Below, piece after piece: positions 6,847-30,417 of a stretch of 31,869 nucleotides of DNA; the first letter of the stretch is position 1, and every line of letters starts with the position of its first letter. Source of the DNA: a virus; the IMG/VR virus record IMGVR_UViG_3300025168_000367, positions 1-31,869 of that record; one strand, given 5' to 3'. The notes under the pieces were generated by a model that made no database searches, was not told the origin of the DNA, and worked only from the letters and a program-made list of their open reading frames with translations. The position numbers were made by a program, and so were the translations under genes.

Positions 6847-7284
6847 ATGGATGAAACACTTAATGAAATGATGAAGAAAGTTCTTGCTGATACATTTGCT
6901 TTGTATCTCAAGACACACAACTATCATTGGAATATAGAAGGTTCAAATTTCCCTCAATACCATGAATTTTTTGGTAAACTATACTTAGAACTATTTGCAT
7001 CAGTAGACACTATCGCAGAACAAATTCGTGCCCTAGACTCTTATGCTCCAGGTTCATTTTCTCGCTTTCAAGAACTATCAGATATCGAAGACGAACTAAC
7101 AGTACCAAATGGTATTGAAATGGCCACAAAATTATTAGAAGACAATGAGGTTGTTATGGCTTCATTATCAATGACATTACAATTAGCAACTGAACTTGAC
7201 AAACAAGGATTAATAAACTTTTTAGCAAATCGAATAGACATTCATAGCACACATCGCTGGATGCTTAGAAGTATTATTAAATAA
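6847..7284 (+). CDS. Dps/ferritin-like ferroxidase
   Basis: This 145-aa four-helix protein belongs to the Dps family, dodecamers that oxidise Fe(II) with peroxide, store iron and often coat DNA. The ferroxidase pattern is complete: H27-W28, H39, D54 and E58 lie in THNYHWNIEGSNFPQYHEFF and SVDTIAEQIRAL, with the same spacing as E. coli Dps H51, H63, D78 and E82. There is no Lys-rich N-terminal tail, so DNA binding in the E. coli manner is not evident. A second His/Arg-rich helix ends the protein (RIDIHSTHRWMLRSIIK). It sits between the two terminase subunits, 9 bases before gp17, which is unusual. Possible jobs are protecting packaged DNA or scavenging iron or peroxide in the infected cell. 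Confidence 0.93.
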   Translation: MDETLNEMMKKVLADTFALYLKTHNYHWNIEGSNFPQYHEFFGKLYLELFASVDTIAEQIRALDSYAPGSFSRFQELSDIEDELTVPNGIEMATKLLEDNEVVMASLSMTLQLATELDKQGLINFLANRIDIHSTHRWMLRSIIK

Positions 7285-24030: not shown

Positions 24031-25745
24031 TTATATTTAGAAAAGTAAAATGGAAAAATCTATTAAGTACAGGTAACCATTTTTCAGAAATTGATTTAGA
24101 TAAGAATATCAACACATTAATTGTTGGTGTCAATGGTTCAGGCAAATCTACTTTGCTTGATGCTTTGTGTTTTGGTCTATTTGGGAAACCATTTCGTAAT
24201 ATTCCAAAAGGCAATCTTACTAATTCAATCAATGGCAAAAACTGTGAAGTAGAAGTAGAGTTTGATACTAACAACAAATCATACAGAGTTGTTCGTAATA
24301 TCAGACCTAATAAATTTGAAATATATATTGATGGTGAATTACTAAATCAAGATGCTGCTATAAGAGATTATCAAGAACAACTTGAAAAGTTCATATTAAA
24401 AATGAACTATAAATCTTTTACACAAATAGTAGTTCTAGGCTCAGCCGCATTTACTCCGTTCATGCAACTATCTAATAATGATAGGCGTGCTATAATTGAA
24501 GACTTGCTAGATATACAAATCTTTTCTGTAATGAATAAAATTACAAGAGAACGATTAGGCAACAATAAAGATTTATTGAGTGAGAAAAGACACAACATTC
24601 AATTGACACAACAAAAATATGATTTTGAAGAAAAACGAATAGGCGATTTAAAACAAAACAATGAAGACAAAATAGATGAATACAACCAAGATATTCTTAC
24701 CAATGAAAATAATATCAATAATCTCACTGAAGAAATTGCGACAATTGGATTACAAGTCAATGAAATTCAAGAGGTTGTTGCAGGCAGACTCGAAACAGAA
24801 CAACGAGTAAAACAACTCAATCAGCTTGAAACTCAAATAGAAACCAATTTATCTAAGTATAAAAAAGATGTTGATTTCTTTGAACACAATGATGATTGTC
24901 CAACATGTAGCCAATTAATTGAGAATGAATTTAAAACAGGACAAATAGAAACTCTTAAAAGTAAGATTACTGGTTGTGATACTGGTCTAACTGAATTAGA
25001 TACTAAAGTAACAGAAGAACAATCCAAACTCAATGTCATCTCAGAAAAACAAATAGAGATACAACAACTGCAGATTAAGACGGCAACAAACACAACATCA
25101 ATTACTGAAATCAATAGATACATTGCTCGTGTCAAAACAAACATCGAAGAATTACAAAACACAAAAACAGTTTCAGAGATAGAAGAACAGAAGTTAAGTG
25201 AACTCAAAACAGAAATTGAGGCCAAAGAAACTGAATTTAAAGAATTGCTTAATGATAAAGAATACTTTGAGGTAGCAAGTGCTTTACTTAAAGATACTGG
25301 AATCAAAACAAAAATTATTAAACAATACTTGCCTGTGATAAACAAATTAGTAAACAGTTATCTGGCGAAACTAGATTTCTTTGTAAACTTTACTCTTGAT
25401 GAATCATTTAAAGAATCAATTAAGTCCAGATTTAGAGATGATTTTACATATAATAACTTTTCTCAAGGCGAAAAACAAAGAATAGATATGGCACTTATGC
25501 TAACATGGCGTGCCGTTGCTAGACTAAAGAATTCTACTAATACCAATCTACTCATACTAGATGAAACATTTGATTCATCATTAGACGCTACAGGCGTTGA
25601 TGAGTTACTTAAGATTTTACATGAACTAGATGATGTGAATATTTTTGTGATATCACATAAAGGCGATATACTACAAGATAAATTTCAAAATATAATTAAA
25701 TTTAGTAAAGTTAAGAACTTTTCAAGGATAGAAAAACATGAGTGA
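24027..25745 (+). CDS. 46: Recombination ATPase subunit gp46
   Basis: This 572-aa SMC/Rad50-like ATPase (T4 560) partners gp47. The start is TTG at 24027, overlapping the gp47 stop. Walker A is GVNGSGKST (34-42). Coiled coils run from about 170-290 and 300-410 around a zinc hook CPTC (291-294). The ABC signature is FSQGEKQRIDMAL (478-490) and Walker B LLILDETF (508-515). All parts of a working Rad50-type protein are present. Its end overlaps the peptide deformylase start by eight bases. Confidence 0.96.
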   Translation: MIIFRKVKWKNLLSTGNHFSEIDLDKNINTLIVGVNGSGKSTLLDALCFGLFGKPFRNIPKGNLTNSINGKNCEVEVEFDTNNKSYRVVRNIRPNKFEIYIDGELLNQDAAIRDYQEQLEKFILKMNYKSFTQIVVLGSAAFTPFMQLSNNDRRAIIEDLLDIQIFSVMNKITRERLGNNKDLLSEKRHNIQLTQQKYDFEEKRIGDLKQNNEDKIDEYNQDILTNENNINNLTEEIATIGLQVNEIQEVVAGRLETEQRVKQLNQLETQIETNLSKYKKDVDFFEHNDDCPTCSQLIENEFKTGQIETLKSKITGCDTGLTELDTKVTEEQSKLNVISEKQIEIQQLQIKTATNTTSITEINRYIARVKTNIEELQNTKTVSEIEEQKLSELKTEIEAKETEFKELLNDKEYFEVASALLKDTGIKTKIIKQYLPVINKLVNSYLAKLDFFVNFTLDESFKESIKSRFRDDFTYNNFSQGEKQRIDMALMLTWRAVARLKNSTNTNLLILDETFDSSLDATGVDELLKILHELDDVNIFVISHKGDILQDKFQNIIKFSKVKNFSRIEKHE

Positions 25746-26409
25746 TATTAAACAGTTTGATGATACAACAGTAGTTACTGAACCAGGCATGACATTTAGT
25801 TACAATACAGCAGAAGGCCTTGGACCAGAACCAAAAGAAACCCCAACTGAAGAGGTAAAAAAACTCAGAGATGAACCATTAGATTTATATGATGACCAAC
25901 TTCCATTACTAAGTGAAACAATGCCTGTTTATGATGAAGCTTTACCTAATGCTAACATGAGAACTCTCATAGCAAGAATGAAAATGACCATGAGAAAGTT
26001 TGGTGGTATTGGTCTATCAGCTAATCAATGTAATGTGCCAACAAGAATGTTTTTAATTTCACATCTAGGTGAAGAGATGGTTTGTATTAATCCTAAATTG
26101 ATTGCATTTGGCCAAAATGATATTAAGCTTGACGAGGGTTGTTTATCTTTTCCTGGTCTAATTCTTTCTGTAAAGAGATACGAAGATATTGATGTTGAAT
26201 ATCAAGATGAGAATGGCGAAACGGTGAATAAACATTTAGATGGAATGTTAGCAAGATGTTTTCAACATGAGCTAGACCATATGAACGGAATAAAGTTTAC
26301 CTCACAAGTGTCCAATCTTGTGTTATCCTTAGCAAAGAAAAAGCAAGATAAACTAATGAAGACTGAAACAAGAAAACAGAAAAACAATTTTAAATGGAAC
26401 GAAGCATAA
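25738..26409 (+). CDS. def: Peptide deformylase
   Basis: This 223-aa metalloenzyme removes the formyl group from new N-terminal methionines. All three motifs are intact: GIGLSANQ (90-97), EGCLS (133-137) with the metal-binding Cys135, and HELDH (177-181) with the two His ligands. Bacterial enzymes are about 170 aa. The excess is an N-terminal extension of roughly 45 residues rich in Asp, Glu, Pro and Thr. Deformylases are common in marine T4-like phages. Its ATG lies inside the end of gp46. Confidence 0.95.
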   Translation: MSDIKQFDDTTVVTEPGMTFSYNTAEGLGPEPKETPTEEVKKLRDEPLDLYDDQLPLLSETMPVYDEALPNANMRTLIARMKMTMRKFGGIGLSANQCNVPTRMFLISHLGEEMVCINPKLIAFGQNDIKLDEGCLSFPGLILSVKRYEDIDVEYQDENGETVNKHLDGMLARCFQHELDHMNGIKFTSQVSNLVLSLAKKKQDKLMKTETRKQKNNFKWNEA

Positions 26410-27690
26410 ATGGCAATTGATTATACAAAAGATGATGTAGAAGTTCAGTGGGAAAAATGGTCAGCCGCCAATCCTGTAGAAGATATGGATGACCCCGACT
26501 TTGAACAAATTAAACAAGAGACTATTACAGACCTTGAATTTGTATCAAAGATGGATGTAAAAGAATATACACTATATCAAAAGTGGTGCGAAGTTCAAGA
26601 AAAATATCCATTCACAATGGTTAATGATTTATGGGAAGGCGAGAAAAAAGTTTTAGCCAACGATAAACAAAGAATGGCTATTGAAGAAGTTAAAAATAAT
26701 GTTTGGAATCCACAAGACATAGATGAATTTATGAAGATAGAACCTGAACTCATATATGCAAACAAACAAGAAGACTTGCCAGAACTATGGAATGTTATTA
26801 GAACATTCTCGTCTACAATGAAAAACAATGCTAATATTGGTCGTAATCTTAACTTCATCGTTAGAGACAAACCAACTAAAAAATATCTTGGCGTTATTTG
26901 TATCTCATCAGATTTTCTAGACTTAACACCTAGAGATAACTTTATTGGATGGAGTAGAGAACTTAAAACACAAGGTTCAATGATTAATCATACAGCAATT
27001 GGTTCTACGATTGTTCCTCTACAACCTTTAGGTTACAACTACACAGGTGGTAAGTTACTAGCACTATTATGTTTAGATGATAAGATACAGAAACTATGGA
27101 AAGAATTGTATGGTGACACGCTAATAGGCGTTACAACTACATCCTTATATGGTAAAGCGAAACTTCATGGACTATCACAATACGATAGACTTAAACACTG
27201 GAAGAAAATGGGCTTCACTGCAGGTTCAGTTAAGTTTGAACCAAGAAGAGTGACAAGAAATAGAATCAATGATTGGATAAAGAAAAATCATACCAGAAAA
27301 TACTTTGAATGGTATGTTGCAAAGAAACCAAGTGGGCAACCACACAAAAGAGACCATAAGAATAGGTCACTATCATTTGCATATTCACAAATGAAAATGG
27401 ATAAAGCATTAACACAATCAGCTCATGCCAGAGGTATATACTTTTCTCCTTTATACAATAATTCAGCTGAGTTCTTAAGAGGTGATATTACTGAAGACAA
27501 ATTAGTAAAATCATTTGATACTTCAACTGAAGCTCTGGTAACTTTATGGAAAGAAAGATATGCAACAAAGAGAATTAGAAATTTAAAAGAATCAAACCGA
27601 GTTTCTACAGAAACATTATTCTATGATAACTTAACAGTGTTATCGTGGGAAGAAACTAAAGATTATTATCTAGACCAAGTTGGTCGGTAA
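26410..27690 (+). CDS. DruA/DUF4338-domain protein
   Basis: This 426-aa protein starts at the base after the deformylase stop. Residues about 145-276 match the pattern of DUF4338, the domain of DruA in Druantia anti-phage systems: YLGVICISSDFLDLTPRDNF (RD..IGW at 175-181), a middle segment IVPLQPLGYNYTGGKLLALL (GGKL at 213-216), VTTTSLYGKAK (241-251) and YDRLKHWKKMGFTAG (258-272). Flanking parts have no match I can name: residues 1-140 are acidic and helical, residues 280-426 basic with HTRKYFEWYVAKKPSG. Its activity is unknown. It lies in the recombination cluster without the helicase DruE or other Druantia parts, so it is not a Druantia system; a DNA-related role is inferred. Confidence 0.7.
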   Translation: MAIDYTKDDVEVQWEKWSAANPVEDMDDPDFEQIKQETITDLEFVSKMDVKEYTLYQKWCEVQEKYPFTMVNDLWEGEKKVLANDKQRMAIEEVKNNVWNPQDIDEFMKIEPELIYANKQEDLPELWNVIRTFSSTMKNNANIGRNLNFIVRDKPTKKYLGVICISSDFLDLTPRDNFIGWSRELKTQGSMINHTAIGSTIVPLQPLGYNYTGGKLLALLCLDDKIQKLWKELYGDTLIGVTTTSLYGKAKLHGLSQYDRLKHWKKMGFTAGSVKFEPRRVTRNRINDWIKKNHTRKYFEWYVAKKPSGQPHKRDHKNRSLSFAYSQMKMDKALTQSAHARGIYFSPLYNNSAEFLRGDITEDKLVKSFDTSTEALVTLWKERYATKRIRNLKESNRVSTETLFYDNLTVLSWEETKDYYLDQVGR

Positions 27691-27705
27691 TAATGGATAT
27701 AATGC

Positions 27706-27733
27706 TTGACTTATGATGTCAATCATGTATAAT
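27706..27733 (+). promoter_or_regulatory. Sigma70-type promoter of the tRNA-like RNAs
   Basis: TTGACT (27706-27711), 16-base spacer, TATAAT (27728-27733). The start would fall near 27740, six bases before the first tRNA-like RNA. The spacer holds the dyad ATGAT (27713-27717), GTCA, ATCAT (27722-27726). The GCTTGAC lead-in is shared with three other promoters here. Confidence 0.85.
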
Positions 27734-27745
27734 GGTTACTTAATT

Positions 27746-27814
27746 GCGGTGGGTTAGTAGAACAGATTATTCTTCCCGTTTAATCAGTCAGTGCGAATCT
27801 GGCACACCGCTCCA
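27746..27814 (+). tRNA. tRNA-Gly(UCC)-like RNA 1, reduced D region
   Basis: This 69-nt element folds like a tRNA. The acceptor GCGGTGG pairs with ACACCGC (six pairs; the 7:66 position is G-A), then discriminator T and encoded CCA. The T-arm is GTCAG-TGCGAAT-CTGGC. A central stem GATTA/TAATC surrounds a loop with TCC in the middle (CTTCCCG if the two T-T positions are counted in the stem). G1-C72, C2-G71, G3-C70, U73 and CC in the anticodon are glycine identity elements. Only 34 nt separate acceptor and T-arm against about 40 in normal tRNAs: the D region is reduced to a short segment TAGTAGAACAGA. T-loop position 55 is G. Confidence 0.6.
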
Positions 27815-27820
27815 ATTTTT

Positions 27821-27889
27821 GCGGAGAAGTAGTAGAACAGAAGTGGCGTCCAGTCAATTCTTTAGGTGCGAATCCTAATCTCCGCTCCA
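27821..27889 (+). tRNA. tRNA-Gly(UCC)-like RNA 2, reduced D region
   Basis: This second 69-nt copy starts six bases after the first. The acceptor GCGGAGA/TCTCCGC is a perfect 7 bp, followed by T and CCA. The T-arm TTAGG-TGCGAAT-CCTAA is perfect. The central stem (GAAGTGG with TCAATTC, one mismatch and a G-T closing pair) carries a loop CGTCCAG with TCC at the centre, but position 33 is G instead of the usual U. TAGTAGAACAGA is identical to copy 1. Stem bases differ from copy 1 by paired changes, which supports selection on structure. Whether it decodes glycine codons or has another role is open. Confidence 0.6.
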
Positions 27890-27922
27890 CTTATTGAGTT
27901 CTTTAATAAGTAAAACTTATCA
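27890..27922 (+). other. Alternative hairpins after the tRNA-like pair
   Basis: CTTATT (27890-27895) can pair with AATAAG (27905-27910); the latter can also pair with a following CTTAT. No T-run follows, so this is not a clear terminator; it may help 3' processing or reduce read-through into cobT. Confidence 0.3.
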
Positions 27923-27940
27923 TTAAATTGCTAAAATAAA

Positions 27941-27980
27941 GCTCGAAAGTGCTTGACTTTTGCATGGAAATCTGTATAAT
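27941..27980 (+). promoter_or_regulatory. Sigma70-type promoter of the cobT-like gene
   Basis: TTGACT (27953-27958), 16-base spacer, TATAAT (27975-27980). The 22 bases at 27941-27962 are repeated exactly at 30420-30441 before the cobS-like gene. The predicted start, about 27986-27988, coincides with the ATG at 27988. Confidence 0.88.
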
Positions 27981-27987
27981 GGATTAC

Positions 27988-30417
27988 ATGATAGTGAAAA
28001 AAGAAGACAATTTATTACAAGAACAGAAGTCTCAGTTAGCAAAACTGATGGCTAATGAAAATTTAACAATCGAACATCAGAAGATTTCTACTGCAAAGTT
28101 CGACCCTAAAAACAGAATATTATATCTTCCAATCTGGACTGATATGATAGGTACAACTTATGATTTGCTTTGCGGACATGAAGTTGGTCACGCTCTGTAT
28201 ACACCTGCTGAAGGATGGCATGATGCAGTTACAATTAATAATAAAGGTAAGAATTACAAAAACTTTTTAAATGTAATTGAAGATGCGAGAATTGAGAAGC
28301 GTGTACAAAGAAAATATCCAGGTCTAAAAAAATCATTCAAGACAGCATATGCTGATTTAAGAGAAAAAGATTTCTTTGGTCTTAAAGGTAGAGATGCTAA
28401 CAAATTAGCTTTTATCGATAGACTAAATCTTTTCACTAAATCACAATATACTATGGCTCTTGATTTTAATGAAGAAGAAACTAAATTATTAGAAAGAGTT
28501 AAGACTACGGAATCATGGTCAGAAGTTGTTAATGTTACGAATGATATATATGCATATTCAACTGAAGAACAATTAGACTATGAAGATGAAATGATGTCAC
28601 AACAAGAACAATTCTTTTCTGAAGACCCTGATGAAGAAGAAGGCGATTACGATGAATATGAAAGTAATGATTCTAAAGATGATGACAGCAAAGACGGTGA
28701 TAATGATGGAAATAATTCAGATTCGGATTCTGATGAAGAAGATAAAGACGAAAGTGAAAATAAAAATCAAACAGATGTTGATGATGAAGATTCTGATGAA
28801 GAAGATGGAGATGAAGATGGTCAAGTTGCAGGAATAAATAGATTTAAAGATTCAGGTTATGAAGAATCAGAAATTGATAATGGACCAAGATGTGAAACTG
28901 ATGAGAATTATAGACATAATGAAAACTCATTAGTTGACGAAGAAAGCAAAGAGTTTATTTACCTTGACTTTCCTAAACCTATCATGAAAAATATTATTAC
29001 TCCTGCTAAAAAAGTTCAAGAATTATTAGCTAAAGATTTTCAAGACCAAGAACTTCAAGGATATTTTAAGAAAGGTTTCAAAGATGAAATCTACAATGAC
29101 TTTAAAAAGAAAAATGATAAGTTTGTAGCTTTACTTGCTAAAGAATTCGAAATGAAAAAAGCTGCCAAAGTTTATGGCAAAAGAAAAATTGCAAGTACTG
29201 GTGATTTAGATATTAACAAACTTGCTTCTTATAAATTCAATGATGATATCTTTAAAAAGATGACAAGTATTCCTGAAGGCAAATCTCACGGACTAGTTCT
29301 ATTATTAGATTATTCTGGTTCAATGTGGGATAATATTCAAGGTGCTATTGAACAAGTATTAATACTTTCTAGTTTTTGTAGAAAAGTAAATATTCCATTT
29401 ACAGTTCAAACATTTTCAGATACTACTACAACTTGGTATATGGATAGAGATATAGAATTTGATAGTAAAACTTATAAACAAGATAGTGACCTTCAATCGT
29501 TTGAAACTAAAGTCGGTACATTAAAACTACAAAATGTTGTCTTAAGAGAATATCTTAATTCAAATATGAATAAAGCTGAGTATACTAAAGCAGTTCAAAA
29601 CATGTTACTGTTATCAAAATCATATGACCACGGTCTTAGATATGATTCAGTGAATAGACCTTATACACCAAAGAGTGAAAGATTAACAAATACTCCACTG
29701 CTTCAAGCATTAGTTGCTCTTGGTAAATATACTAACGAGTTCAAAGCTTCTAGAGGTCTTGACATTGTTAATTTAATTATTATACATGATGGCGATGCTG
29801 ACTATTGTCACGACTACACTGCTTTTGGTTTGAATGAATATCAAAAATATCCAGAAGACCATGTGTTAAAAAATAAATATATGCCTAAAGAAGAACATTC
29901 TCCACATGAACATACTAAAAGAATGGACACTCAAGAAACTAACATAGTTCTTAAAGATGATTCAATAAGATTTACATCTAGAATCAAACAGGGACATTAT
30001 AATACAAATCAAGTATTTCTTAATACTATGGATTGGTTTAAAAAGTTAACCGGTTCTAAAATTATTGGTTTCTATATTGTTGCTCCAAATTCAAGAGAAG
30101 TTAAAGACGCTATTTACAGACAATATGTAAATGCAGATGGTCAAACTGTTAGTGATAAAGGATATGAGAAGTGGGAATATCAAAAGAATATTGTTAAAAT
30201 ATTTAGAAAAGAAAAATTATTGGTTTCTCAAAAACCAAACTATGATGATTTCTACATGATTCTTGGAGGCAAAGACTTAAATGCTGCTGACAAAGAAGTC
30301 GAAGTATCAGGAAAAGTAACTGCTAACAAATTAAAAAATGCATTTATGAAAGTGAATAAATCAAAAGTTGTGAACAGAGTTCTGGTGAGTAAATTTATTG
30401 ATAAAATTGCTGCTTAA
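27988..30417 (+). CDS. cobT: CobT-like protein: metalloprotease motif and VWA domain
   Basis: This 809-aa protein is called CobT in marine T4-like phages. From the ATG at 27988: CGHEVGHALYTP contains HEVGH (64-68), a zinc-protease motif, with NVIEDARIE (about 96-104) as a possible third ligand. Residues about 200-280 are a long Asp/Glu/Ser run. The C-terminal VWA domain has the metal-ion site D-Y-S-G-S (441-445) in LVLLLDYSGSMWDN. MoxR ATPase plus VWA protein pairs are a known remodelling pair, and the AAA+ partner is the next gene. The first ATG lies at the predicted transcription start with no ribosome-binding site, so translation may be leaderless; upstream in-frame starts lie inside the promoter. 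The cobaltochelatase name comes from distant homology and its activity here is doubtful. Confidence 0.85.
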   Translation: MIVKKEDNLLQEQKSQLAKLMANENLTIEHQKISTAKFDPKNRILYLPIWTDMIGTTYDLLCGHEVGHALYTPAEGWHDAVTINNKGKNYKNFLNVIEDARIEKRVQRKYPGLKKSFKTAYADLREKDFFGLKGRDANKLAFIDRLNLFTKSQYTMALDFNEEETKLLERVKTTESWSEVVNVTNDIYAYSTEEQLDYEDEMMSQQEQFFSEDPDEEEGDYDEYESNDSKDDDSKDGDNDGNNSDSDSDEEDKDESENKNQTDVDDEDSDEEDGDEDGQVAGINRFKDSGYEESEIDNGPRCETDENYRHNENSLVDEESKEFIYLDFPKPIMKNIITPAKKVQELLAKDFQDQELQGYFKKGFKDEIYNDFKKKNDKFVALLAKEFEMKKAAKVYGKRKIASTGDLDINKLASYKFNDDIFKKMTSIPEGKSHGLVLLLDYSGSMWDNIQGAIEQVLILSSFCRKVNIPFTVQTFSDTTTTWYMDRDIEFDSKTYKQDSDLQSFETKVGTLKLQNVVLREYLNSNMNKAEYTKAVQNMLLLSKSYDHGLRYDSVNRPYTPKSERLTNTPLLQALVALGKYTNEFKASRGLDIVNLIIIHDGDADYCHDYTAFGLNEYQKYPEDHVLKNKYMPKEEHSPHEHTKRMDTQETNIVLKDDSIRFTSRIKQGHYNTNQVFLNTMDWFKKLTGSKIIGFYIVAPNSREVKDAIYRQYVNADGQTVSDKGYEKWEYQKNIVKIFRKEKLLVSQKPNYDDFYMILGGKDLNAADKEVEVSGKVTANKLKNAFMKVNKSKVVNRVLVSKFIDKIAA

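Follow-up and report, generated by a model that had tools for sequence, protein, structure and literature searches.

We found that T4-like phages related to pelagimyophages encode a family of reduced tRNA-Gly genes, here called mini-tRNAs. In this family, the parts of a tRNA that glycyl-tRNA synthetase (GlyRS) reads are kept and the parts that the ribosome reads are lost, which argues for a glycylated, non-decoding RNA. Judged from sequence, the mini-tRNAs are probably charged with glycine and do not take part in decoding. The family includes at least 99 distinct sequences in more than 180 viral contigs, all from one phage lineage, so that these counts overstate the number of independent events. 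It is large and, as far as the open-access literature searched extends, undescribed. To our knowledge, it would be the first phage DNA-encoded family of tRNA mimics apparently selected for synthetase identity with decoding discarded. It offers a natural system in which to test how few elements glycine identity requires, and it points to an unrecognised use of glycyl-RNA during the infection of aquatic bacteria.

Two tandem mini-tRNA genes in a phage genome fragment

The DNA analysed (the window) is a 31,869-bp IMG/VR record that carries T4-like myophage genes (terminase, tail sheath, portal, SbcCD and CobS-like) and is probably part of a larger genome. By its 426-aa gene, druA1, the closest named relatives were Pelagibacter phages Mosig and HTVC008M; by its portal, the closest was Methylophilales phage Melnitz. 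A blastn search against named phages with either the locus or a single unit as query gave no useful match. In the window, druA1 is followed by two 69-nt units, spaced 6 nt apart, and then by a peptidase gene (Table 1). Immediately 5' of druA1, at 25738-26409, is a gene encoding a phage peptide deformylase (PF01327, E = 3.8e-39). The peptidase ORF is listed from GTG 27949, and a promoter sequence (TTGACT-16 nt-TATAAT, 27953-27980) falls inside this listed start; translation more probably begins at the in-frame ATG 27988.

A preliminary description of this DNA had proposed two tandem tRNA-Gly-like units behind a near-consensus promoter. Both units and the promoter were present, and each unit had the acceptor stem, T-arm, U73, encoded CCA and loop TCC that had been described. 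The G at position 55 of the T-loop and the absence of U33 from unit 2 were also confirmed in the sequence.

Table 1. Features of the mini-tRNA locus, with positions counted along the window
Feature	Position	Strand	Remarks
druA1, 426-aa DruA-family protein	26410..27690	+	PF14236, E = 2e-22; candidate partner by synteny only
Sigma-70-like promoter, TTGACT-16 nt-TATAAT	27706..27733	+	11/12 consensus matches; 12 nt between -10 box and G1 of unit 1
Unit 1, mini-tRNA-Gly	27746..27814	+	covariance model 85.8 bits
Unit 1 acceptor	27746-27752/27804-27810	+	
Unit 1 mini D-stem	27753-27755/27761-27763	+	loop AGTAG
Unit 1 central stem	27765-27771/27779-27785	+	two inner pairs T.T
Unit 1 loop CTTCCCG	27772-27778	+	TCC at 27774-27776; C-G pair closes loop
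Unit 1 T-arm	27787-27803	+	loop TGCGAAT
Unit 1 3' end	U73 27811; CCA 27812-27814	+	
Unit 2, mini-tRNA-Gly	27821..27889	+	covariance model 83.3 bits; exact span called by ARAGORN mitochondrial mode
Unit 2 acceptor	27821-27827/27879-27885	+	7 bp
Unit 2 D region	27828-27838	+	1/3 D-stem pairs kept
Unit 2 central stem	27840-27846/27854-27860	+	
Unit 2 loop CGTCCAG	27847-27853	+	TCC at 27849-27851; G33
Unit 2 T-arm	27862-27878	+	
Unit 2 3' end	U73 27886; CCA 27887-27889	+	

Promoter sequences with at least 10 of 12 consensus matches were predicted in 79 of the 111 distinct stretches upstream of first units (shuffled mean, 2.65), with the -10 box mostly 8-13 nt before G1. We infer that the mini-tRNAs are transcribed from their own predicted promoter.

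Standard tRNA annotation misses this common gene class. ARAGORN in bacterial mode reported no gene in the window, and Rfam gave nothing at the gathering threshold and, within 27600-28000, nothing matching tRNA even at E ≤ 10. ARAGORN in mitochondrial mode called unit 2 as mtRNA-Gly(tcc), along with ten further calls that are probably spurious.

Three trivial origins were considered. An overlooked normal cloverleaf was ruled out, as none was produced by MFE folding, ARAGORN in bacterial mode or Rfam. A remnant of attP/tRNA integration was ruled out because two complete tandem units covary in every stem; in addition, the genome contigs searched contained no druA1 relatives and no match to the class C RNA pattern. 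Pattern matches without acceptor pairing (L003, L005, L007, L021 and L024) were treated as coding-sequence coincidence and removed.

Collection and classes of the family

Members were collected by a pattern scan, two scans with the neighbouring protein, and two scans with D-arm/T-arm patterns (at least 120 contigs and 63 contigs, respectively). Among the matches listed, all 161 scanned sources yielded a unit, one of which was incomplete. The units were grouped into class A (mostly 67-70 nt, often a tandem pair), to which the window belongs, class C (63-66 nt, a single unit) and class D (67-69 nt). The covariance model was built from eight 69-mers only, and MAFFT on all lengths misplaced the 5' end. 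Across 63 related loci, this model recovered 57 units, some of them outside its training set and as short as 63 nt.

Secondary structure and covariation

Because the MFE z-scores of single units were modest (-1.7 and -2.55), the case for a structured RNA rests on covariation and not on energy. The covariance search returned abundant homologues with compensatory changes, and the units go far past what chance would produce. On the covariance-model alignment, which is biased towards its own structure, 91.7% of cells were paired, compared with 67.3% in shuffles that ignore kinship and 39-50% with slid partners. The covariation score on this alignment was 0.569 against 0.135 when shuffled, and 18 of 22 pairs had changed on both sides, the other four being invariant. 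Two further checks were made. A structure-guided segmentation of 48 units, likewise chosen for pairing, gave 92.7% paired against 68.1% shuffled, and RNAalifold, predicting a structure of its own from 103 class C matches, returned identical stems with covariation in all four. Furthermore, at several paired positions, three or four kinds of Watson-Crick pair occur across different clades. Acceptor pairs 6 and 7 were often mismatched (unpaired in 16/47 and 27/47, respectively).

These alignments changed the structural model in two places. Its stems, U73 and CCA stood, but its accounts of the D region and of the loop needed correction. The D region had been described as having no conserved pairing, whereas relatives form a covarying 3-bp stem (95.7% of cells paired) with a 3-6-nt loop. 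This mini D-arm appears as GUU/AAC, GUC/GAC, GUG/CAC or GUA/UAC, with compensatory changes in all three pairs; the third pair was CG in 44, AU in 31, UA in 15 and GC in 3 of the 99 units among the matches listed. In the window, the D-stem is intact in unit 1 and lacks two of its three pairs in unit 2.

The second change concerns positions 32 and 38. Of the 58 seven-nt loops, 57 had a standard pair there (AU 24, CG 13, GC 10, UA 9, UG 1; shuffled mean, 23), as did 39 of the 41 six-nt loops (shuffled mean, 28), and RNAalifold recovered the pair independently (UA 54, CG 43). As these positions covary as a pair, the "anticodon loop" is a 5-nt or 4-nt apical loop. The 5-nt form occurs as UACCC, UCCCC, GUCCA, UUCCC or CACCC, and the 4-nt form as CCCA or CCCC. 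Six-nt loops with a paired closing position made up 41 of the 99 units among the matches listed.

Retention of glycine identity

The bacterial glycine identity set consists of U73, G1-C72, C2-G71, G3-C70, C35 and C36, none of which lies in the core (PMC9976931, Table 1). Among the matches listed, all 68 distinct complete units carried G1-C72, C2-G71, G3-C70, U73 and CCA, and every loop of the 68 had CC at 35-36; the search patterns for classes C and D span only the D- and T-arms and left the identity positions free to vary. Pair 4 was G-C in 67 of these 68 units and pairs 5-7 were variable. The invariant positions of the family are, at the level of sequence, exactly the bacterial glycine identity set. 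In the Escherichia coli complex, GlyRS touches the first four base pairs as well as U73, C35 and C36, and an acceptor-T minihelix gets charged (PMC9908026).

Loss of decoding features

The units fall short of a canonical tRNA in cloverleaf score, in the 7-nt loop with unpaired 32/38 and U33, in TpsiC and in G18-G19. Among the matches listed, the T-loop TTC (TpsiC) was absent from 99 of 99 units. The normal D-loop (G18-G19, 8-nt class) and U33 were lost or variable, although U33 was kept in many units, including most of class D. A pared-down tRNA-Gly with the ability to read GGN codons intact, and perhaps with resistance to anticodon nucleases, would account for this U33 and for the NCC retained in the loop (UCC, CCC or ACC). 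D-arm-poor tRNAs do decode in mitochondria (PMC7609411), and evasion of nucleases has been suggested for phage tRNAs whose anticodon loops are altered (PMC10264068). However, such a working decoder is hard to reconcile with Watson-Crick covariation at 32-38, with apical loops of four nucleotides and with the universal loss of TpsiC, and we regard it as very improbable. Specialised decoding is the least likely of the uses considered.

Genome content also bears on decoding. A 214-kb contig with 25 canonical tRNAs and a 157-kb contig with 22 both carried tRNA-Gly(UCC) as well as a mini-tRNA beside druA. Since phages with full tRNA sets carry the canonical genes too, the mini-tRNAs are not substitutes for tRNA-Gly(UCC). 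Six other long contigs had a mini-tRNA and zero canonical tRNAs, so that in those contigs the mini-tRNA does not belong to a decoding set. Class D units sit in tRNA clusters, directly after or near canonical tRNA-Gly genes. Among the class D contigs inspected in detail, the gene that follows was often groES-like by eye; such a gene comes after a class D unit at the end of a cluster of canonical tRNAs in at least two contigs, namely L363 (G014; unit at 6952-7018) and also L365 and L366.

Proposed fate of the RNA and possible uses

We propose that these reduced tRNA-Gly genes would be transcribed from their own promoter and that the transcripts would be matured to the CCA end. The host GlyRS would then add glycine, recognising U73, the initial base pairs and the two C residues of the loop. 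The charged RNA would be a poor ribosome substrate because its loop has 4-5 nt, its D-arm is a 3-bp stub and TpsiC is gone, and it would make up a glycyl-RNA pool set apart from protein synthesis. We infer both charging and exclusion from the ribosome from the pattern of conserved and lost positions. Points that count against this proposal are the U33 kept in many units and the ability of D-armless tRNAs to function on mitochondrial ribosomes.

Two uses fit the pattern, namely a glycine donor or a decoy for enzymes that modify Gly-tRNA. As a donor, the likelier of the two uses, the RNA would give its glycine to a non-ribosomal acyl transfer, for which the neighbouring DruA-family protein is the best, though weak, candidate. 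The donor role is a tentative reading that we consider somewhat doubtful, and both this role and the DruA partner are guesses. Among the matches listed with enough upstream sequence, units were downstream of druA1 in 25/25 class A and 108/108 class C cases, and in class D in 12 cases but not in 48; in four long contigs, druA1 lay ~10-17 kb from the class D units. Both druA1 and its paralogue druA2 were present in all eight long contigs tested, including those with unlinked class D units, and Mosig has druA1 with the mini-tRNA absent. Because druA1 seems to belong to the core gene set of these phages, its co-occurrence with mini-tRNAs is weak evidence.

Two AlphaFold2 models of DruA1 (pLDDT 82.5 and 86.9) had GNAT acetyltransferases as top PDB matches, but these were weak (best E 0.011 and 0.028; TM-score ~0.45), and a sequence-profile search of DruA1 against the PDB gave no relative. 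FemX-like (PF13480) or L/F-transferase (PF03588) genes were found in none of ten phage contigs. This result counts against a donor role, as do the weak GNAT likeness, the unlinked class D units and the state of Mosig. The narrower proposal, that a GNAT-fold DruA-family enzyme of the phage would use a private glycyl-RNA pool to transfer glycine to a non-ribosomal target, is improbable. If it were true, DruA proteins, including those of Druantia defence, would become candidate aminoacyl-tRNA-dependent transferases.

A shorter DruA-family paralogue (~370 aa) was seen in the same phages at L303:885-1991 (-) and L330:11335-12441 (+), and also at G001:C1:161158-161640. In cyanophages, DruA homologues are located between the clamp-loader genes gp44 and gp62, and a family-model search of cyanophages with DruA homologues gave weak matches only, mostly of canonical tRNA length.

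As a decoy or sponge, glycyl-mini-tRNA would compete for host enzymes that attack Gly-tRNA, such as the GNAT toxins TacT and AtaT2 or the toxSAS FaRel2, and would spare the real tRNA-Gly. The family retains the acceptor and the charging marks and not the decoding parts, which is consistent with such a use. The majority of GNAT toxins tested act specifically on Gly-tRNA-Gly, recognising the acceptor stem together with the glycyl moiety (PMC9177977); FaRel2 selects tRNA-Gly through G1-C72, C2-G71, G4-C69 and pair 5, and a minihelix can also serve as its substrate (PMC11559606). Phage tRNAs have also been proposed to evade tRNA-directed defence (PMC10264068). However, the target enzymes are catalytic, and a substrate decoy merely slows them. 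FaRel2 requires a purine-pyrimidine pair 5, whereas the commonest pair 5 in the family is U-A, and C35/C36 would matter solely to ensure charging. We consider a decoy unlikely, if less so than decoding.

In classes A and C, the mini-tRNA has druA on one side and the peptidase gene on the other, which would suit a regulator, either a sensor of glycine or GlyRS or a structural RNA whose tRNA mimicry aids processing, stability or control of flanking genes. Charging can serve non-translational purposes, as in the tRNA mimics of plant viruses, and SAR11-type bacteria and their phages employ riboswitches (PMC9004378). Cis control of druA or the peptidase gene is nevertheless unlikely, given the promoter-like sequence that the mini-tRNAs have of their own and the class D units in tRNA clusters far from druA1, and mere processing would not need the full GlyRS set. 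A regulatory role seems rather improbable.

Two further features of this interval were observed. In most class C loci (for example, L042 4370-4460), the stretch separating the mini-tRNA from the peptidase gene contains a small conserved hairpin, TGTTG-TTTTTATG-CAACA, which is possibly a terminator or processing signal. An insertion of several hundred bases separates druA1 from the mini-tRNA in L050, L111, L112, L127, L158, L161 and G010; it seemingly holds an opposite-strand gene that looked homing-endonuclease-like by eye.

Comparison with known systems

The mini-tRNAs resemble the Staphylococcus tRNA-Gly that serves FemXAB as donor for the peptidoglycan bridge in keeping glycine identity and in their weakened T-arm features. 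The non-proteinogenic tRNA-Gly of Staphylococcus is a full cloverleaf with a D-arm. It is bacterial and has known Fem enzymes, whereas the mini-tRNAs are phage-borne, with a 3-bp D stub, a 4-5-nt apical loop and no Fem-type enzyme found in ten contigs. For the Staphylococcus RNA, retained glycine identity, loss of G18-G19 and weakened elongation-factor and T-arm features have been described, and use outside translation has been proposed (PMC4052509).

D-armless or D-reduced mitochondrial tRNAs share the shrunken D region, in line with the detection of unit 2 by ARAGORN in mitochondrial mode, but they have a 7-nt anticodon loop and decode, whereas the mini-tRNAs have a paired 32-38 and coexist with canonical tRNA-Gly. 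The tRNA-like structures of plant RNA viruses are also virus-encoded mimics that keep synthetase identity. Those structures are 3' genome ends with Val, His or Tyr identity, whereas each mini-tRNA is a gene in its own right, encoded by a DNA phage and bearing glycine identity. Nuclease-evading phage tRNAs are likewise phage-encoded with an altered anticodon loop; however, they are canonical, decode and cover many isotypes, whereas the mini-tRNAs are glycine only and have lost the loop geometry.

A pelagimyophage survey gives 0 tRNAs for HTVC008M (PMC7029224). We detected in this phage a 74-nt degenerate tRNA-Gly(ACC) gene (KC465899.1 91140-91213; L026:9998-10071), which matched the family model at E 7.7e-6 and which ARAGORN calls tRNA-Gly(acc); it is not annotated in the record. 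Like the mini-tRNAs, it has the glycine identity marks, no T-loop TTC and an ACC loop as in class D, but its D region is longer, with no GG in the D-loop. It looks like an intermediate towards the mini-tRNAs.
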